NCBI GenBank assembly: GCA_913063165.1
Contig: CAJXZL010000004.1
Span: 1-64,000 of the forward strand
Origin: an uncultured Saccharospirillaceae bacterium
Lineage (GTDB): Bacteria > Pseudomonadota > Gammaproteobacteria > Pseudomonadales > Natronospirillaceae
DNA: 64,000 bases
Direction of reading: 5' to 3'
Part shown: one piece after another, positions 1 to 25,868 of the stretch
Layout of the letters: each line of letters starts with the position of its first letter
How positions within the stretch are numbered: the first letter of the stretch is position 1
The notes under the pieces: model-generated
The model's input: only the letters and a program-made list of their open reading frames with translations
The model's database searches: none
Told to the model about the DNA's origin: nothing
Translations under genes and position numbers: made by a program

Positions 1-109
1 TTTAATCAACGATTTCTGTGGTTCTTGTGGCGTATTAATGGCGCTACTCCTAGCAGTGTTGTTATAGCAGTGTCGTTCAAGTGATGTCTCAAACAGGGGA
101 GCCTAACCC

Positions 110-2839: not shown

Positions 2840-3059
2840 TAAAGTGCAGTCAGCGATCGTTGTCGTTGGTGGAATATTTTCTGGGCATGCTGTTTTTAAC
2901 TATCAAGAGCATATTCCAACAACGTGGTATCTATCATCAGACGCGCTATTGGCTGTTTGCTTTGCTGTGGCAATTCAGGGTGTATTGTCGTTTGTTGGTG
3001 TTTTAAATCTATGGGGCGGCAAGAAACTGCCCATCAAAAAAACTCATGATCTCACTTAA
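2829..3059 (+). CDS. small putative membrane protein
   Basis: A 76-residue reading frame starting at ATG 2829 inside the end of the truncated HxlR frame. It has two hydrophobic stretches (SAIVVVGGIFSGHAVF and ALLAVCFAVAIQGVLSFVGVL, the second about 20 residues) and a basic C-terminus. No ribosome site is evident before the ATG. It could be a true two-helix membrane protein or an accidental frame left by the deletion that broke the regulator. It precedes another membrane protein gene at 3095. Confidence 0.4.
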   Translation: MKNNKVQSAIVVVGGIFSGHAVFNYQEHIPTTWYLSSDALLAVCFAVAIQGVLSFVGVLNLWGGKKLPIKKTHDLT

Positions 3060-3094
3060 TTGCGCACCTTGTTTCAGCGGTAGGCGGAGATAAT

Positions 3095-5506: not shown

Positions 5507-5692
5507 CGCCTGCCAATCAACTGAGGTGTGTTTTTAAGACCCGATGTTATGCCTTGAGATGAAGGCTATTTCATGACGTTTTATGGCGCTTATTTGAATG
5601 TCTATTCAGCGCCGCCATTCGCCCCAAGCAATTAGATTGTAGAGTGGTGACGGGTAAGCTAGGCTGTCAAAAAACGTCCTTTGGAGTTCGTC

Positions 5693-6331
5693 ATGGTTAC
5701 GCTCTACTATTATCCTGGAAATGCCAGTTTTGCACCGCACATGCTATTAGAAGAAATAGGCGTGCCTTTTCAGCTATCACTGGTTGATAAAAAGAACAAA
5801 GCCCAAAAATCGCCTGAATACTTGGCACTGAATCCTGCAGGTCGAATCCCTGTATTGGTCGATGATGGCCAACCACTATTTGAAGCAGCAGCCATCTGCT
5901 TACACCTGTGTGATAAAAACCCCAAAGCCGTTCTGTTTCCTGCGACAGGCACGCGCGAGCGAAGCTTGGCCTATCAATGGTTGATGTACTTAACCAATAC
6001 AGTACAAACCGAGCTGGTGATGTATTTCTACCCAGAACGTTATACCACCCATGTTGTTGAGGCGCCTCATATTGTGGCTGCGCAAGAAGTCCGCATTACC
6101 GAGATGTTTGCTTTGCTTGATCGTGCTTTAGAACACAAGACCTATTTGGTAGGCAGCACACCGACCGCCTGTGACTATTATTTGTTCATGCTGGCCAGTT
6201 GGGCTGACGAATTCCCAACACCACCTTTGTCATTTCCCAATATCAAAAGGGTATTAAAGGCGTTGACGAATCGCCCCGCCGTGCAGCGGGTCTGTTTAAA
6301 AGAAGGGTTTGATCTGACACCTTATCAGTAA
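5693..6331 (+). CDS. glutathione S-transferase family protein
   Basis: A 212-residue protein with the two-domain GST layout. The thioredoxin-like N-terminus begins VTLYYYPGNASFAPHMLLEE. It continues with NPAGRIPVLVDDG, carrying the conserved cis-proline, and LFEAAAICLHL for gamma-glutamyl binding. The helical C-terminal domain contains ACDYYLFML in the position of the N-capping motif. TTTGGAG sits upstream of ATG 5693, so that start is preferred. It probably conjugates or reduces small electrophiles in the cytoplasm; the class and substrate are uncertain. Confidence 0.88.
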   Translation: MVTLYYYPGNASFAPHMLLEEIGVPFQLSLVDKKNKAQKSPEYLALNPAGRIPVLVDDGQPLFEAAAICLHLCDKNPKAVLFPATGTRERSLAYQWLMYLTNTVQTELVMYFYPERYTTHVVEAPHIVAAQEVRITEMFALLDRALEHKTYLVGSTPTACDYYLFMLASWADEFPTPPLSFPNIKRVLKALTNRPAVQRVCLKEGFDLTPYQ

Positions 6332-6901: not shown

Positions 6902-7264
6902 TTAGGTGTTCATCAACACCACGGCAGCAACCATAGGCAACAAGCCGGCTACCACCAACAGCGTAATCCATCGATCCAATGTGTGGGATGGGCTGGCATC
7001 TGCATCGGCATCGGCATCGGCATCGGCATCGGCATCGGCATCGGCATCGGCATCGGCAGGCTTCTTGGAGAGATAGAGGTCAAACTTGGCACGTTCAGGT
7101 CGCTTGGCAATCATGACCGCTGCAGCAACCCAGGGTAATAAGCCCATATAAAGCAGACTGTCTGACAAAGGCATCGTGGAAAATTTATCGGTGCTGACGG
7201 TCAATAGCCACAGAATGAAAGCTGATATACCCAATATGAAGGTCATTTTTAAAACGGTTTGCAT
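6902..7264 (-). CDS. small membrane protein with Ala-Asp repeat linker
   Basis: A 120-residue protein with three helices (about 4-24, 36-54 and 100-118). Between helices 2 and 3 is a run of about ten Ala-Asp dipeptides encoded by a hexanucleotide microsatellite. In the paralog at 6398-6715 the same loop is a short acidic linker without repeats. The unit is six bases, so gains or losses keep the frame and only change linker length. Function is unknown. Confidence 0.65.
   Translation of the reverse strand: MQTVLKMTFILGISAFILWLLTVSTDKFSTMPLSDSLLYMGLLPWVAAAVMIAKRPERAKFDLYLSKKPADADADADADADADADADADASPSHTLDRWITLLVVAGLLPMVAAVVLMNT
6996..7055. repeat. hexanucleotide microsatellite (GCATCG)
   Basis: Nine perfect copies of GCATCG occupy 7002-7055, preceded by one variant copy (GCATCT, 6996-7001). 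They lie inside the membrane-protein gene and encode alternating Asp and Ala on the minus strand. Confidence 0.97.
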
Positions 7265-8018: not shown

Positions 8019-11000
8019 TCATGGCTCATAACCTAGGGCCGGTGACAACCAACGCTCAACTATGGGTAAGTCCACTTTTTTCCGCCGTGCCAACGATCGA
8101 ATCTGGTCGCGATCGACTTTACCGACACCAAAGTATTTAGATTCTGGGTGGCTAAAATACCAACCACTCACCGATGCAGCAGGCAACATGGCCATGGATT
8201 CAGTCAGGCTCACACCCGTGCCATTTTCGGCATCCAGTAAGGAGAATAGGGTGGTCTTTTCGGTGTGGTCTGGGCAAGCAGGGTAGCCCGGCGCAGGTCG
8301 AATGCCACGATAGGATTCTTTGATGAGTGCATCGTTGTCTAGTGATTCATCACCGGCATAGCCCCAAAATTCTTTTCTGACCCGTTCATGCAGGTGTTCG
8401 GCGAAGGCTTCAGCGAGACGGTCTGCCAAAGCCTTGACCATTATGGCATTGTAGTCGTCATGCGCTGCTTCATATTCTTTCGCAATCTCATCAGCACCCA
8501 GGCCAGCAGTGACCACAAAGCCACCGATATAGTCCTGTGATGCAGATGCCGGCGCAATGTAGTCTGCCAGTGACAGATTTGGCTTGCCATTTGGCAGCTC
8601 AGTTTGCTGGCGCAAATGGTGTAGCACGGCCAAAGGTTGGCCATCGCCGATCGTTTTGAATACCGCAATGTCATCGTCATTCTGGCGCTGTGCAGGCCAA
8701 AAGCCGTAAGTGGCATTGGCTTTAATACGGCGGTTATCCACCAAATCCTTGAGCATGGCTTGTGCATCAGCAAAGAGGTTTTTGGCTTCTTGTCCGATTA
8801 CTTTATCGTCAAAAATGCGCGGATATTTGCCAGCCAACTCCCAGGTCATAAAAAATGGGGTCCAGTCGATATAGGGCACTAACTGCTCTAATGGATAGTC
8901 TTCAAGCGTGAATACGCCCAATTGCTTGGGTACGGGTGGTTGATAGTCACTCCAGTCAAAAGACAAACCATTTTCAACCGACTGTTGATAAGGGCGTAGC
9001 GTCTTCGCCTTGCGATTTTGGTTACGTAGACGAACCTGCTCATATTCTGCACGACGCTCTGCCACGAACGCAGCCTTGGCGTCAGGGCTGGTCAATTGTG
9101 CCGATACGGACACGGCGCGTGATGCGTCGGCTACATACACCACGGCATCATTCTGGTATTGGGGTTCTATCTTAACCGCAGTGTGGGCTTTAGACGTGGT
9201 CGCGCCGCCAATCATCACAGGGATGTTGAAATTCTGGCGCTGCAGCTCTTTCCCCACATGCACCATCTCGTCCAGCGACGGCGTGATCAAGCCACTGAGG
9301 CCGATGATATCAACGTCATGGGCAATGGCTTCTTTCAGAATGGTTTCTGCGGATACCATGACGCCAAGGTCAATTACCTCAAAGTTATTGCACTGTAATA
9401 CGACACCGACAATATTTTTGCCTATGTCATGCACATCGCCTTTCACCGTGGCCATCAGGATGCGGCCCTTTGAACGGTTGTTAACGTCTTTTTCTTCTTC
9501 AATATAGGGAATGAGGTGGGCAACCGATTGCTTCATCACGCGGGCTGATTTCACCACCTGAGGCAAGAACATTTTGCCGTCGCCAAATAAGTCACCCACG
9601 CGGTTCATGCCAGTCATTAATGGACCTTCAATCACTTCGATTGGGCGGGCATAACCCAGACGGGCTTCTTCGGTGTCTTCAATAATGTGTGTGGTGATGC
9701 CTTTGACCAAAGCATGGCTGATGCGGTCTGCCACGGGCCAGGTCCGCCATTCTTCGGTTTCTTTGACAACTTCAACCCCGTCGCCACGGAATTTATCGGC
9801 GATTTCTAGCAGTCGATCAGTGGCATCAGGCCGGCGATTCAAAATCACGTCTTCTACACGGTCACGGAGTTCCAACGGAATGTCTTCATAACCCACCAAT
9901 TGGCTGGCATTCACAATGCCCATGTTCATACCGGCTTTTACGGCGTGGTACAAGAACACGGCATGTATGGCTTCGCGCACCGGGTTGTTGCCGCGGAATG
10001 AGAATGACACGTTGGATACGCCGCCACTGACTGATACGTGGGGTAGGTTGGCACGCAAATAGCGCGTCGCTTCAATAAAGTCGACGGCATAGTTGTTGTG
10101 TTCTTCAATCCCCGTGGCGACCGCAAAAATATTGGGGTCAAAAATAATGTCTTGTGGTGGGAAACCGATGCCTACTAGCAGGGTATACGAGCGTTCACAG
10201 ATCGCGATCTTTCTTTGAAGCGTGTCTGCCTGTCCAGTTTCATCAAATGCCATCACGACGACGGCGGCACCATACCGCAAGCATTGTTTGGCTGCGTGTA
10301 GGAACGGCGCTTCACCTTCTTTTAAAGAGATGGAGTTGACGATGGACTTGCCTTGAATACATTGCAGTCCGGCTTCAATGATGTCCCATTTTGACGAGTC
10401 GACCATGATGGGTATGCGCGCAATATCGGGCTCTGAGGCAATGAGACGACAAAAATGCGACATGGCATTCTGTGAATCCAACATACCCTCATCCATGTTG
10501 ATATCGATCACCTGTGCGCCATTTTCAACCTGCTCAAGGGCAACTTCCAATGCCGTATCAAATTCACCTTCTAAAATCAGGCGTTTGAAACGGGCAGAAC
10601 CCGTTACGTTGGTGCGTTCACCCACGTTGATAAATAAACTGTTTTTGTCTGCCCTAAAGCCTTCAAGGCCACTCAAAACAAGCGCTGGTTCTGGGGTAGG
10701 GATGGTGCGTGGCGCAGTGTCGCCAATCGCTTTTCGCATGGCGCGAATGTGCTGTGGGGTTGTGCCACAGCAGCCACCGACAATGTTAAAAAATCCTAGC
10801 TGGGCATATTCGGCCATGATTTCTGCCATGTCTTCGGCAGTTTCATCGTATTCGCCAAACTCATTGGGCAGGCCAGCATTTGGATAGACCGATACTGGGC
10901 AATCAGCAACCTGTGACAAGCGCTCAAGAAAGGGACGCAACTCGGTAGCGCCTAACGCACAGTTTAAACCCACAGAGAACGGGTTGGCATGTCGAATAGA

Positions 11001-23168: not shown

Positions 23169-24308
23169 CTAGGCTTCCTGTTCTGCTTTCTGGACCATCA
23201 AAATAACAAACTTGCTGTCACCTGTTACAGTGGTGCATCGTCCAAATAGCTTTTTGAGTACCACATGGTATTGCAGATGGCGGTTGGCAACGACCCATAA
23301 CTGGCCACCAGGACGCAGACTGGTTTCAGCGCTCTTAAACAAATCCTGTGCAAGTTCGGTGGTGACTGTGGTGCCTTGGTGAAACGGTGGATTGCACACA
23401 ATCAAATCAAACGGGCGATCAGCCGACAACGGCATCGCGTCTGCTTGGAAGGCATGTGACCGTTGGCTTTCACCGAATGCGCGTAACAAATTTTCTTCTG
23501 CACAGGCTACAGCCATCGCAGATTCATCTACCATGACGACTTCAGCGTCAGGGTGCTTTTTCAAATAAGCCAGTCCGAGTACGCCGTTACCGCAACCCAA
23601 ATCACCGACCAACGCCGCTTTAGGAAGCTGGTGTAGGCTGTCTAAGAATAGTCGAGTGCCCATATCTAGCTGGTTGCCACAAAAAATACCCGGTGTCTGA
23701 GCCAACATAATGTCGGTATTGGGCAGTACATACCCCGGCGTAAAGCGTGGCGGCATGGCTGATTGTTTGGCATTGGTTGCCTGCCATACACGTGCCTTTT
23801 TTCGTCCCTTTAGCGGGTTAACGGGGCCAAAATACTGTGCTACTGCGTCAAACTGGCTTTTACGGATGTGCTTGTCCATGCCAGCTAACCACAATTCTGC
23901 TCCCTCGGGTGCAATGGCGCTTAGGCTCTGTAACTGCCAGTGCAGTAAGGCCATCGATTTTGGGATTTTTAATACGATAACACCCCGTGGTTCTGCAATG
24001 TTGTGTGACATCGGCAGCCAGTGGGTCATTAGGTTGTCGGCGTCTAAACCGTTTAGCGTCGCGTTTCTGCGACAAGCAATGGCGGCTTGTTCTGAATCCG
24101 ACCATGACTGCTGTACGCGATCATTGAGGCTGACGGTGAGCGCACCGAAGGCATCATTGACCACGGTAATGTCACGGTAGTCATCGGTAAGCAACTCGAG
24201 CAAAAAACTGTCGGCAGAATCCCATGCTTGTAGCGGTAAATGGGGTGCATGTGGTTGGCGCTGTAGGGTAAATGCGCCCATCGGCGTGGTCATTGTTTGC
24301 TCGGTCAT
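23169..24308 (-). CDS. rlmG: 23S rRNA (guanine-1835-N2) methyltransferase RlmG
   Basis: A 379-residue methyltransferase of the RlmG/RsmC group. The C-terminal domain binds SAM at VGDLGCGNGVLGLAYLKK and has the catalytic CNPPFHQGT. The N-terminal half is the degenerate methyltransferase domain typical of the group. Length matches RlmG (378 residues in E. coli) better than RsmC (343), so RlmG, acting on G1835 of 23S rRNA, is preferred. The gene is preceded by a long tandem repeat array, 230 bases upstream of the start. Confidence 0.85.
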   Translation of the reverse strand: MTEQTMTTPMGAFTLQRQPHAPHLPLQAWDSADSFLLELLTDDYRDITVVNDAFGALTVSLNDRVQQSWSDSEQAAIACRRNATLNGLDADNLMTHWLPMSHNIAEPRGVIVLKIPKSMALLHWQLQSLSAIAPEGAELWLAGMDKHIRKSQFDAVAQYFGPVNPLKGRKKARVWQATNAKQSAMPPRFTPGYVLPNTDIMLAQTPGIFCGNQLDMGTRLFLDSLHQLPKAALVGDLGCGNGVLGLAYLKKHPDAEVVMVDESAMAVACAEENLLRAFGESQRSHAFQADAMPLSADRPFDLIVCNPPFHQGTTVTTELAQDLFKSAETSLRPGGQLWVVANRHLQYHVVLKKLFGRCTTVTGDSKFVILMVQKAEQEA

Positions 24309-24535
24309 GGCGATAAAATCACTGGGTTATATAAAGGACAGCTAGTGTAGTCGCTTATGGACTGCCGCTCAAACGCTTCGATGATTCTTGGGTAAAACGC
24401 TTGTGTCGAACAGTGTCCATTCTTATCCCGTGCGCTTGGGTGTTCTCATTCATTATTTATACCGTTATCTTTGTTATTTTGGTTGGCTCATCGAAGTCAG
24501 TGGCGCCTGGTAAATCGGCTATATAAGGCGTGATA

Positions 24536-24656
24536 GGCAGTTGAAAGGCAGTTGAAAGGCAGTTGAAGGGCAGTTGAAAGGCAGTTGAAGGGCAGTTGAA
24601 AGGCAGTTGAAGGGCAGTTGAAAGGCAGTTAAAGGGCAGCTGAAATGCAGTTGAAA
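24536..24656. repeat. 11 tandem copies of an 11-bp unit
   Basis: Eleven units of GGCAGTTGAAA/G fill exactly 121 bases. From copy 2 to copy 10 the last base alternates A and G, giving a 22-bp higher-order period. Copies 9 to 11 carry single substitutions. The array is intergenic, between the 5' end of rlmG and the 3' end of trmA. Confidence 0.97.
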
Positions 24657-24740
24657 GGCAGTTAATAGACAGGACAGGCAGTTAATAGACAGGACAGGCA
24701 GTTAATAGACAGGACAGGCAGTTAATAGACAGGACAGGCA
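24657..24740. repeat. four tandem copies of a 20-bp unit
   Basis: Four identical 20-base units (GGCAGTTAATAGACAGGACA) follow directly on the 11-bp array, ending with a partial GGCA. The unit begins with the same GGCAGTT as the 11-bp repeat, so the second array probably grew from its last copy. The remaining gap between rlmG and this block (24309-24535) holds no gene that I can see. Confidence 0.97.
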
Positions 24741-24765
24741 AAGACCCAATATAGGGGTTGATAAT

Positions 24766-24789
24766 CGAGCAACCCAGTTAGGTTGCTCG
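24766..24789 (-). terminator. possible terminator stem-loop of trmA
   Basis: CGAGCAACC and GGTTGCTCG form a perfect nine-base stem with a six-base loop just past the trmA stop. There is no T-tract on the minus strand, so termination is only likely. Confidence 0.45.
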
Positions 24790-24800
24790 CATGTTGCTGG

Positions 24801-25868
24801 CTACGATTTACGAATGAGAAGGGCACCGCACTCAAGGTGGTGGGTATAGGGAAACTGGTCAAAACACGCAAACTGCTGAATGTCGTAGGCGTCACTTAAC
24901 GCAGCGCAATTCGCACGTAAGGTTTCCGGATTGCATGAAATGTATATGATGTTTTTAAAGTGCCGCGCCAAATCTAGGGTCGCTGGATCGAGGCCTGCTC
25001 TAGGTGGATCAACAAACAAGGTATCTAATGCGGACTCTGTGCGGTCTGTCTTCAACCACTGTGCACTGAAATCTTCACTGCTGGCTTTTAAGAATTGGAT
25101 ATTGTCGCAACCGTTAAGCGCGGCATTTTCGGTTGCGGCTTTGGTGGAAAGCTTTGAAATCTCGGTGGCGGTTACGGCATCAAACTGTCTGCTCAGGGGC
25201 AGGGTAAAGTTACCAATCCCACAATAGAGTTCAAGCAAATCGCCTTCTAGTGAGGCGGCTTGGTCAACTGCCCACTGAAGCATGTGGGTCGCAACCCCTG
25301 CATTCGGTTGGGTAAAGGTGTTTTCATATTGGTGATAGGTATAGACGCCATCGTTCAATGTGAACGTTTCCTCTACCCAGTTCTGGCTCACCACGATTTT
25401 TTGTTTGCGTGACCGCCCAATGATGTGCACCCCAAGGTCTTTCTCTAGCTGTTGTGCTTTCTCTAACCAGTCGTCTTCAAGCGGTCGGTGGTAAATCATG
25501 CTGACCAGGGCTTGCGCTGTGGTCGTGGTGAGAAACTCGACTTGGTAGAGCTTTCTTCGGAGTATGGGGTCTGCCATAAATGCGTCACGCACCTGCGTCA
25601 TCAAGGTGTTGATAAGCGCAGAACCCACTGGGAATTCGTCCATGCGGATGCGTTCTTTGGTCTCTGGATTGAACATGATATAGAAGCTATCGTCGGCTTC
25701 ATGCCATACGCGAAATTCAGCGCGCATGCGGTAGTGGCTTACTTCAGACTCATAGACTGTTGGCGTGGGTAACACCAAACCATCCTCAGCAAATTGGCTG
25801 TTTACTAGGGCTATTTTGTCCTGTAACAGACTATGATATTGATCTGGAAAAACTTGGCCTACCGACAT
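24801..25868 (-). CDS. trmA: tRNA (uracil-5-)-methyltransferase TrmA
   Basis: A 355-residue enzyme that forms 5-methyluridine at position 54 of tRNAs (and at 341 of tmRNA). The SAM site is LLELYCGIGNFTLPL. FVDPPRAGLD precedes the nucleophilic Cys in YISCNPETL, and the C-terminal HHLECGALL carries the catalytic Glu. The lack of an N-terminal iron-sulfur or TRAM segment separates it from RlmC/RlmD. Length agrees with E. coli (366). It is divergent from miaE. Confidence 0.96.
   Translation of the reverse strand: MSVGQVFPDQYHSLLQDKIALVNSQFAEDGLVLPTPTVYESEVSHYRMRAEFRVWHEADDSFYIMFNPETKERIRMDEFPVGSALINTLMTQVRDAFMADPILRRKLYQVEFLTTTTAQALVSMIYHRPLEDDWLEKAQQLEKDLGVHIIGRSRKQKIVVSQNWVEETFTLNDGVYTYHQYENTFTQPNAGVATHMLQWAVDQAASLEGDLLELYCGIGNFTLPLSRQFDAVTATEISKLSTKAATENAALNGCDNIQFLKASSEDFSAQWLKTDRTESALDTLFVDPPRAGLDPATLDLARHFKNIIYISCNPETLRANCAALSDAYDIQQFACFDQFPYTHHLECGALLIRKS

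Follow-up and report, generated by a model that had tools for sequence, protein, structure and literature searches.

The tandem array between trmA and rlmG belongs, in our opinion, to a dispersed family of short tandem repeats that is specific to this lineage and occupies intergenic loci; we put the probability of this reading at about 0.7. The array lies in a 64,000-nucleotide stretch of DNA from an uncultured Saccharospirillaceae bacterium, hereafter the window. An earlier note on this DNA had described a local repeat. The arrays are real, but "local" was too narrow a term, since about 18 related loci are found in the same genome.

Arrays between trmA and rlmG

Two adjoining arrays lie in the 492 nt that separate trmA from rlmG, two genes encoded on the minus strand. 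The features of the locus are as follows (window coordinates).

23169-24308, minus strand: rlmG, MTS-domain methyltransferase (PF05175, E 3e-52), its start 227 bases from the array
24536-24656, plus strand: first array, eleven 11-bp units GGCAGTTGAAR, the last three degenerate (unit read-out, TRF)
24657-24740, plus strand: second array, four identical 20-bp units GGCAGTTAATAGACAGGACA (24657-24736) and the GGCA of a fifth (unit read-out, TRF)
24536-24740, minus strand: putative Rho-loading (rut-like) stretch of the trmA-to-rlmG RNA, suggested by composition and folding
24766-24789, minus strand: 10-bp hairpin downstream of trmA with no U-tract after it (folding; z -4.1 for the 60-nt stretch 24741-24800)
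24801-25868, minus strand: trmA, tRNA uracil-5 methyltransferase (PF05958, E 6.9e-127), its stop 60 bases from the array

It should be noted that the domain of RlmG was tested by PF05175, while the gene name comes from the earlier note. The nested arrangement described there, eleven 11-bp units followed by four identical 20-bp units, is confirmed by reading out the units and by TRF, which reports period 11 at 24531-24663 (score 210) and period 20 at 24656-24740 (match 100%, score 170). The sequence GGCAGTTGAA is present in eight copies in the window against 0.22 expected, and none of 100 shuffles contained eight or more. The final bases of 11-bp units 1 to 11 are A A G A G A G A G A A, and units 9, 10 and 11 additionally carry point changes. 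The alternation of A and G that had been described for this base holds for units 2-10 but fails between units 1 and 2 and between units 10 and 11. A 22-bp double unit thus accounts for units 2-10, which supports the proposed growth of the first array in 22-bp steps. The proposed origin of the 20-bp unit from the end of the first array is likewise supported by their common GGCAGTT start. It is plausible that the second array is the later one and young. The distance to rlmG, given earlier as 230 bases, is close to the 227 measured.

No listed open reading frame of at least 60 aa crosses the array, neither of its strands contains a G3N1-7 quadruplex motif, and an Rfam search of 24200-24950 matched no family at E≤1. 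One sigma-70 promoter and one intrinsic terminator candidate were found in 24250-24950 and rejected, being no more than shuffles yield. Elsewhere in the window, a hexamer array GGCATC (10.7 copies, 6995-7058) has a period that is a multiple of three and is possibly coding.

When the rlmG loci of 19 relatives were compared, trmA was found beside rlmG within 1.5 kb in 14. The spacing, measured to the start of the rlmG match, is 0-20 nt in six of these, in which trmA abuts rlmG; 429-489 nt in six others, where the interval resembles a small, putative opposite-strand gene; and 129 and 715 nt in the remaining two. The content of this gap thus differs between relatives, and here it includes the array. 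BLAST found the window array in none of the relatives searched.

Related arrays in the same genome

The own genome was read in 1.23 Mb of the 2.55 Mb draft: 58 small contigs and one 19-kb contig in full, 39 segments of 20 kb each, together with the window. A query of 521 bases around the array retrieved three more places, two of which reach a contig edge and one of which lies 156 bases from an edge. Scanning for RGCAG at about 10-bp spacing yielded 21 clusters, 20 of them at 18 loci; the remaining one, in C31, is a coding repeat and was removed from the locus counts. The family unit is a decamer, RGCAGNNAAR, whose core RGCAG and end AAR are common to the arrays at about 18 loci. The undecamer of the window is a private form of this decamer, longer by 1 bp, and an array of 11-bp units exists only here. 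Altogether, 143 units at 18 loci (a 19th locus, on C85, yielded none) fall into 31 variants, and the nine variants that recur at two or more loci account for 92 units. The cores are spaced by 10 bp in 133 cases, by 11 in ten (nine of them in the window), by 20 in nine, by 9 in five, and otherwise in at least seven. The variant AGCAGATAAG is present at nine loci and GGCAGAGAAA at seven. The window unit GGCAGTTGAAA equals GGCAGTGAAA of contigs C62, C92 and C109 plus one base, and BLAST connects the window array with these three loci at E values of 1e-10 to 5e-18, scores of a kind that repeats inflate.

Of 76 matches of a decamer probe in the whole genome, 74 fall inside the 1.23 Mb sample, which therefore covers nearly all arrays of the decamer type in the draft. 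Five of the 20 clusters (C30:1-50, C30:6743-6842, two in C73, and C89) were placed within open frames by a mechanical ORF finder; we take these frames as spurious or edge frames.

Some decamer arrays are joined to heptamer arrays of the form GGGATNC. Six clusters of the GGATNCG heptamer were detected in the 1.23 Mb, and the passage from decamer to heptamer runs via CAGATGCG or a near variant in C55, C30 (twice), C73, C85, C87 and C95. A G4 motif is present in seven of the eight heptamer stretches tested elsewhere in the genome.

The genome is generally rich in short tandem arrays. At a TRF score of at least 80, a period of 6-30 and at least four copies, there are 8 arrays in 464 kb that include the window, 7 in 399 kb of larger contigs, and 26 in 369 kb of small contigs, a set biased towards arrays; not every array counted belongs to the family. 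Equal thresholds gave no array in 390 kb from 19 genomes of the same family. Loss of MutS was considered as a cause of the arrays; mutS is present, so that such a loss does not explain them. Long arrays of unrelated units were also seen: GTGACATG in 22 copies at L190 (C84) 5567-5740, CTTTCTAT in nine at L217 (C57) 9760-9834, and CCCAGA in 14 at L099 (C99) 1-83. A 27-bp tandem unit GTAAATCCCCGCCGGATAGGCGAACAG at L085 (C95) 30-133 and L206 (C68) 35-111 constitutes a second dispersed repeat near contig ends. The 14-bp unit TAGCAGTGTCGTTA at window positions 51-77 recurs at L097 4022-4048, at the end of contig C101, and perhaps represents a 77-base contig overlap.

Distribution in other genomes

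With two mismatches allowed, the decamer probe matched 76 times in this genome but nowhere in 292 other genomes of the order, which were drawn evenly from a larger group; the reversed probe, used as a control, had no match. Moreover, a loose pattern of three GGCAGT units, sought in 57 relatives including the own genome, was found in the own genome only, and the scan applied to the own genome detected neither decamer nor heptamer clusters in 390 kb from relatives. The heptamer probe matched 47 times here and not at all in 21 other genomes of the family. A GGGATGC array was found in one of 142 other genomes of the class; that genome belongs to another family, its part that was read (L292) contains no decamers, and the array is taken as independent in origin.

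The loose pattern, three GGCAGT units spaced 10-11 bp apart, was matched by 78 stretches from named genomes of many phyla, with at most four matches per stretch. Phage was considered as a carrier of the family and rejected: decamers, in arrays of about 3 to 6 units, occur in six viral contigs and the undecamer in none, and TRF found no heptamer array in the viral-contig stretches examined. We read the viral decamers as independent arrays, their gene context being judged by eye. In two viral contigs (L310 and L312), three-unit AAAGCAGATA arrays stand at an apparent stop codon, also judged by eye; the frame there would give the tail KQIKADKSR, as would the EamA frame of C104/C91, and inverted copies lie downstream. 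The unit variants shared between loci could be partly convergent, in view of the 78 GGCAGT stretches and the viral decamers. As far as searched, the decamer family appears to be lineage-specific.

Placement relative to genes

The 5′ neighbour is known at 16 loci, adjoining decamer and heptamer clusters having been merged by hand and loci with a contig end on the 5′ side excluded (C30:1-103, C68, C106, C95:3929-3977 and C85). At 11 of them, this neighbour is in the sense orientation, and the G/A-rich strand faces the 5′ gene there. The array starts within 15 nt after the neighbour's stop codon at six loci or more, within 25 nt at eight, and within 50 nt at nine, the corresponding null fractions being 5.0%, 7.9% and 14.0%. 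For nine of 16 within 50 nt of a sense stop, the binomial tail is 9e-5, in a test that was devised after the pattern had been noticed and that takes its null from mechanical ORFs of at least 85 aa. For C67, the distance was measured from rpsT. C91 was given a distance of 0, counted from the 25-nt bin on, because the EamA frame of the overlapping contig C104 enters the array; its stop there was read by eye on C91. At the 11 sense loci, the 5′ genes have no relation to one another: Cu-oxidase_4, YbjN, polysaccharide deacetylase, MurB, MerR, redoxin, HMGL-like, GNAT, EamA, S20, and a 265-aa ORF without a Pfam match.

The window array is antisense to both of its neighbours, lies 227 bases from the 5′ one, and is among the five loci whose 5′ neighbour points away. 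It counts against the family reading that the array departs from the commonest placement; seven of the 16 loci, this one included, start elsewhere than within 50 nt of a sense stop. A palindrome at L086 (C109) 2909-3065, with the array on one side and a 140-aa ORF lacking a Pfam match on the other, resembles by eye what we take to be a LexA box.

Predicted Rho loading

The most concrete functional proposal that can be tested at this locus is that of Rho loading. RNA transcribed from the minus strand of the array has 72 C and 25 G in 205 nt, an overall C/G ratio of 2.9; the mean for its 78-nt segments is 3.1, and of random 78-nt pieces drawn from the sampled genome 0.2% have a ratio at least as high. 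A YC dinucleotide recurs every 11 nt, and the regular YC pattern has a density of 18.3 per kb in the gap vs 0.39 per kb. The RNA is predicted to be nearly unstructured: for each of the two arrays, 200 of 200 shuffles fold at least as well. The genome encodes rho. According to the available excerpt of PMC6407284, published RUT criteria comprise a 78-nt stretch with C>G and a C every 11-13 nt, a downstream pause site being also part of the published procedure; the array matches the RUT part, with its 78-nt C>G stretch and C every 11-13 nt. Rho-ended messages are described as being trimmed back to stem-loops in the excerpt of PMC9927376. A C-rich, G-poor, nearly unstructured RNA with regular YC that follows a hairpin may therefore load Rho, and the likeliest effect, if any, would be to help the trmA transcript end before rlmG. 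As in Rho-dependent terminators (PMC6407284, in excerpt), a C>G stretch longer than 78 nt with regularly spaced C lies on the strand that would be transcribed. Unlike known terminators of this type, the candidate stretch here is tandemly repetitive. It counts against the proposal that at 11 of the 16 loci it is instead the G/A-rich strand that faces the 5′ gene.

Alternative explanations

It is a separate and rather doubtful claim that the array has been selected as a Rho-dependent terminator or attenuator which insulates rlmG from trmA and whose repeat number tunes read-through. The composition, YC spacing and lack of structure of the 205-nt RNA, its position after a hairpin without a U-tract, and the presence of rho would fit such a role, as would a gap of 492 nt here vs 0-20 nt in six of the 19 relatives. 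However, the C-rich strand of any GGCAG array would look rut-like, so that every member of the family would look alike and the feature need not have been selected; and the array was not found in the relatives searched. A very unlikely alternative views the repeats as helically phased protein sites or bent DNA, of the kind formed by iterons or bound by nucleoid proteins. The period of 11 here and of 10 in the family invites this view, and a wedge model predicts the 11-bp array to be more curved than genomic DNA, its curvature being reached by none of 300 genomic pieces and one of 200 shuffles. The curvature suggested in the earlier note is to that extent borne out, but it is not specific: when 11-bp units are shuffled and repeated in tandem, 19% equal or exceed the pure unit array in curvature, which makes curvature generic to the 11-bp period. 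Moreover, in the same model AGCAGATAAG decamer arrays are straight and the 20-bp array is no more curved than shuffles. An 11-bp helical spacing does not characterize the family, whose other members are built of 10-bp and 7-bp units; the 7-bp and 20-bp partner units and the unrelated genes that adjoin the loci also argue against phased sites.

An unrelated array that arose here by local slippage, with a GGCAG likeness due to chance, is improbable. A GGCAGTTGAAR array is found at the window locus only, and its placement is unlike that of most of the family; however, its unit is one inserted base from that of C62, C92 and C109, BLAST links it to these loci (with repeat-inflated scores), and co-occurrence by chance is unlikely given that 292 other genomes yielded no decamer match. 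Least probable of all, to the point of being scarcely credible, is an assembly artefact or collapse, which the earlier note had named as a way in which its reading could fail. Family arrays do break contigs in this draft of 112 contigs: of 133 contig ends examined, 12 have one no more than 100 nt away, compared with 13 of 11,625 interior 100-nt tiles, and the arrays coincide with a part of the contig breaks; C90 and C106 possibly represent opposite ends of a single array. An exact 77-base overlap joins ten pairs of contig ends, and perfect short-period runs were found at ten contig ends (N ends excluded), with lengths of 77-83 bases at seven and 35-49 at three. These overlaps and the runs of 77-83 bases suggest an assembly k of 77. 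Within the window array, no k-mer longer than 65 is repeated, which is below this value, so that the array is resolvable; a longer perfect tract of the 20-bp unit would presumably break the contig and not collapse. The contig also runs on through conserved genes at both sides of the array.

Comparison with known repeats

Dispersed intergenic short tandem repeats as such are already known; the present family has units of its own, a decamer or undecamer with a heptamer partner. Its closest published counterparts are the GGGNATC heptamers of Xanthomonas and Nostoc and the STRR of cyanobacteria. Among the matches listed in the literature, a small part of all matches, there was no decamer or composite family of such sequence. 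The GGGNATC heptamers of Xanthomonas and Nostoc are, in the available excerpt of Rehm et al. 2015 (PMC4692102), dispersed, intergenic, variable in copy number and near a 5′ ORF; those located downstream of genes are mostly within 50 nt of the stop codon on the sense strand, and no part in gene regulation could be assigned to them by the authors. The present genome likewise has a G3N4 heptamer family, with G4 motifs in seven of eight stretches, and nine of 16 family loci within 50 nt of a sense stop. The heptamer of this genome differs from those repeats in being GGGATNC and in its link to a 10-bp unit. As for the window array itself, its units are 11 and 20 bp, it has no heptamers and no G4 motif, and it is placed away from sense stops, opposite to the commonest orientation.

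The STRR of filamentous cyanobacteria usually have 7-bp, hairpin-forming units (PMC2670836, in excerpt). They resemble the present arrays in being intergenic, made of short units and confined to one lineage, with function unknown, and related short units recur at many intergenic loci of this lineage, which agrees with STRR in a broad sense. In contrast to STRR, the unit here measures 10-11 bp, and almost no structure is predicted for the C-rich strand of the window array. Marine Beggiatoaceae, also a gammaproteobacterial group, have lineage-restricted intergenic TAACTGA repeats, described in the excerpt of PMC4679880 as having two to six copies in the main genome and lying mostly just upstream of start codons; the arrays described here are longer and often follow stop codons.

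Interpretation

If the window array belongs to such a family, each array would grow by replication slippage, here in 22-bp and later in 20-bp steps, and a copying process would have spread units between loci. Arrays would be tolerated where genes stay unbroken, often just past stop codons, with the G/A-rich strand in the message. At the trmA locus, the opposite, C-rich strand would be transcribed towards rlmG, presenting rut-like composition and spacing after a hairpin. A more speculative extension, to which we attach little weight, holds that a composite non-coding element, (RGCAGNNAAR)n followed by (GGGATNC)n, spreads between gene ends with an oriented start at stop codons, that one direction would load Rho while the other is a neutral 3′ extension, and that growth and direction would adjust transcript ends.

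What had looked like a local repeat is thus probably a member of a genome-wide family that is private to one lineage among the genomes searched. A simple, testable idea of why the arrays might prefer one direction is that the G/A-rich strand would be harmless in a message whereas the C-rich strand could load Rho, and the family may offer an approach to the unexplained function of dispersed short tandem repeats in bacteria.
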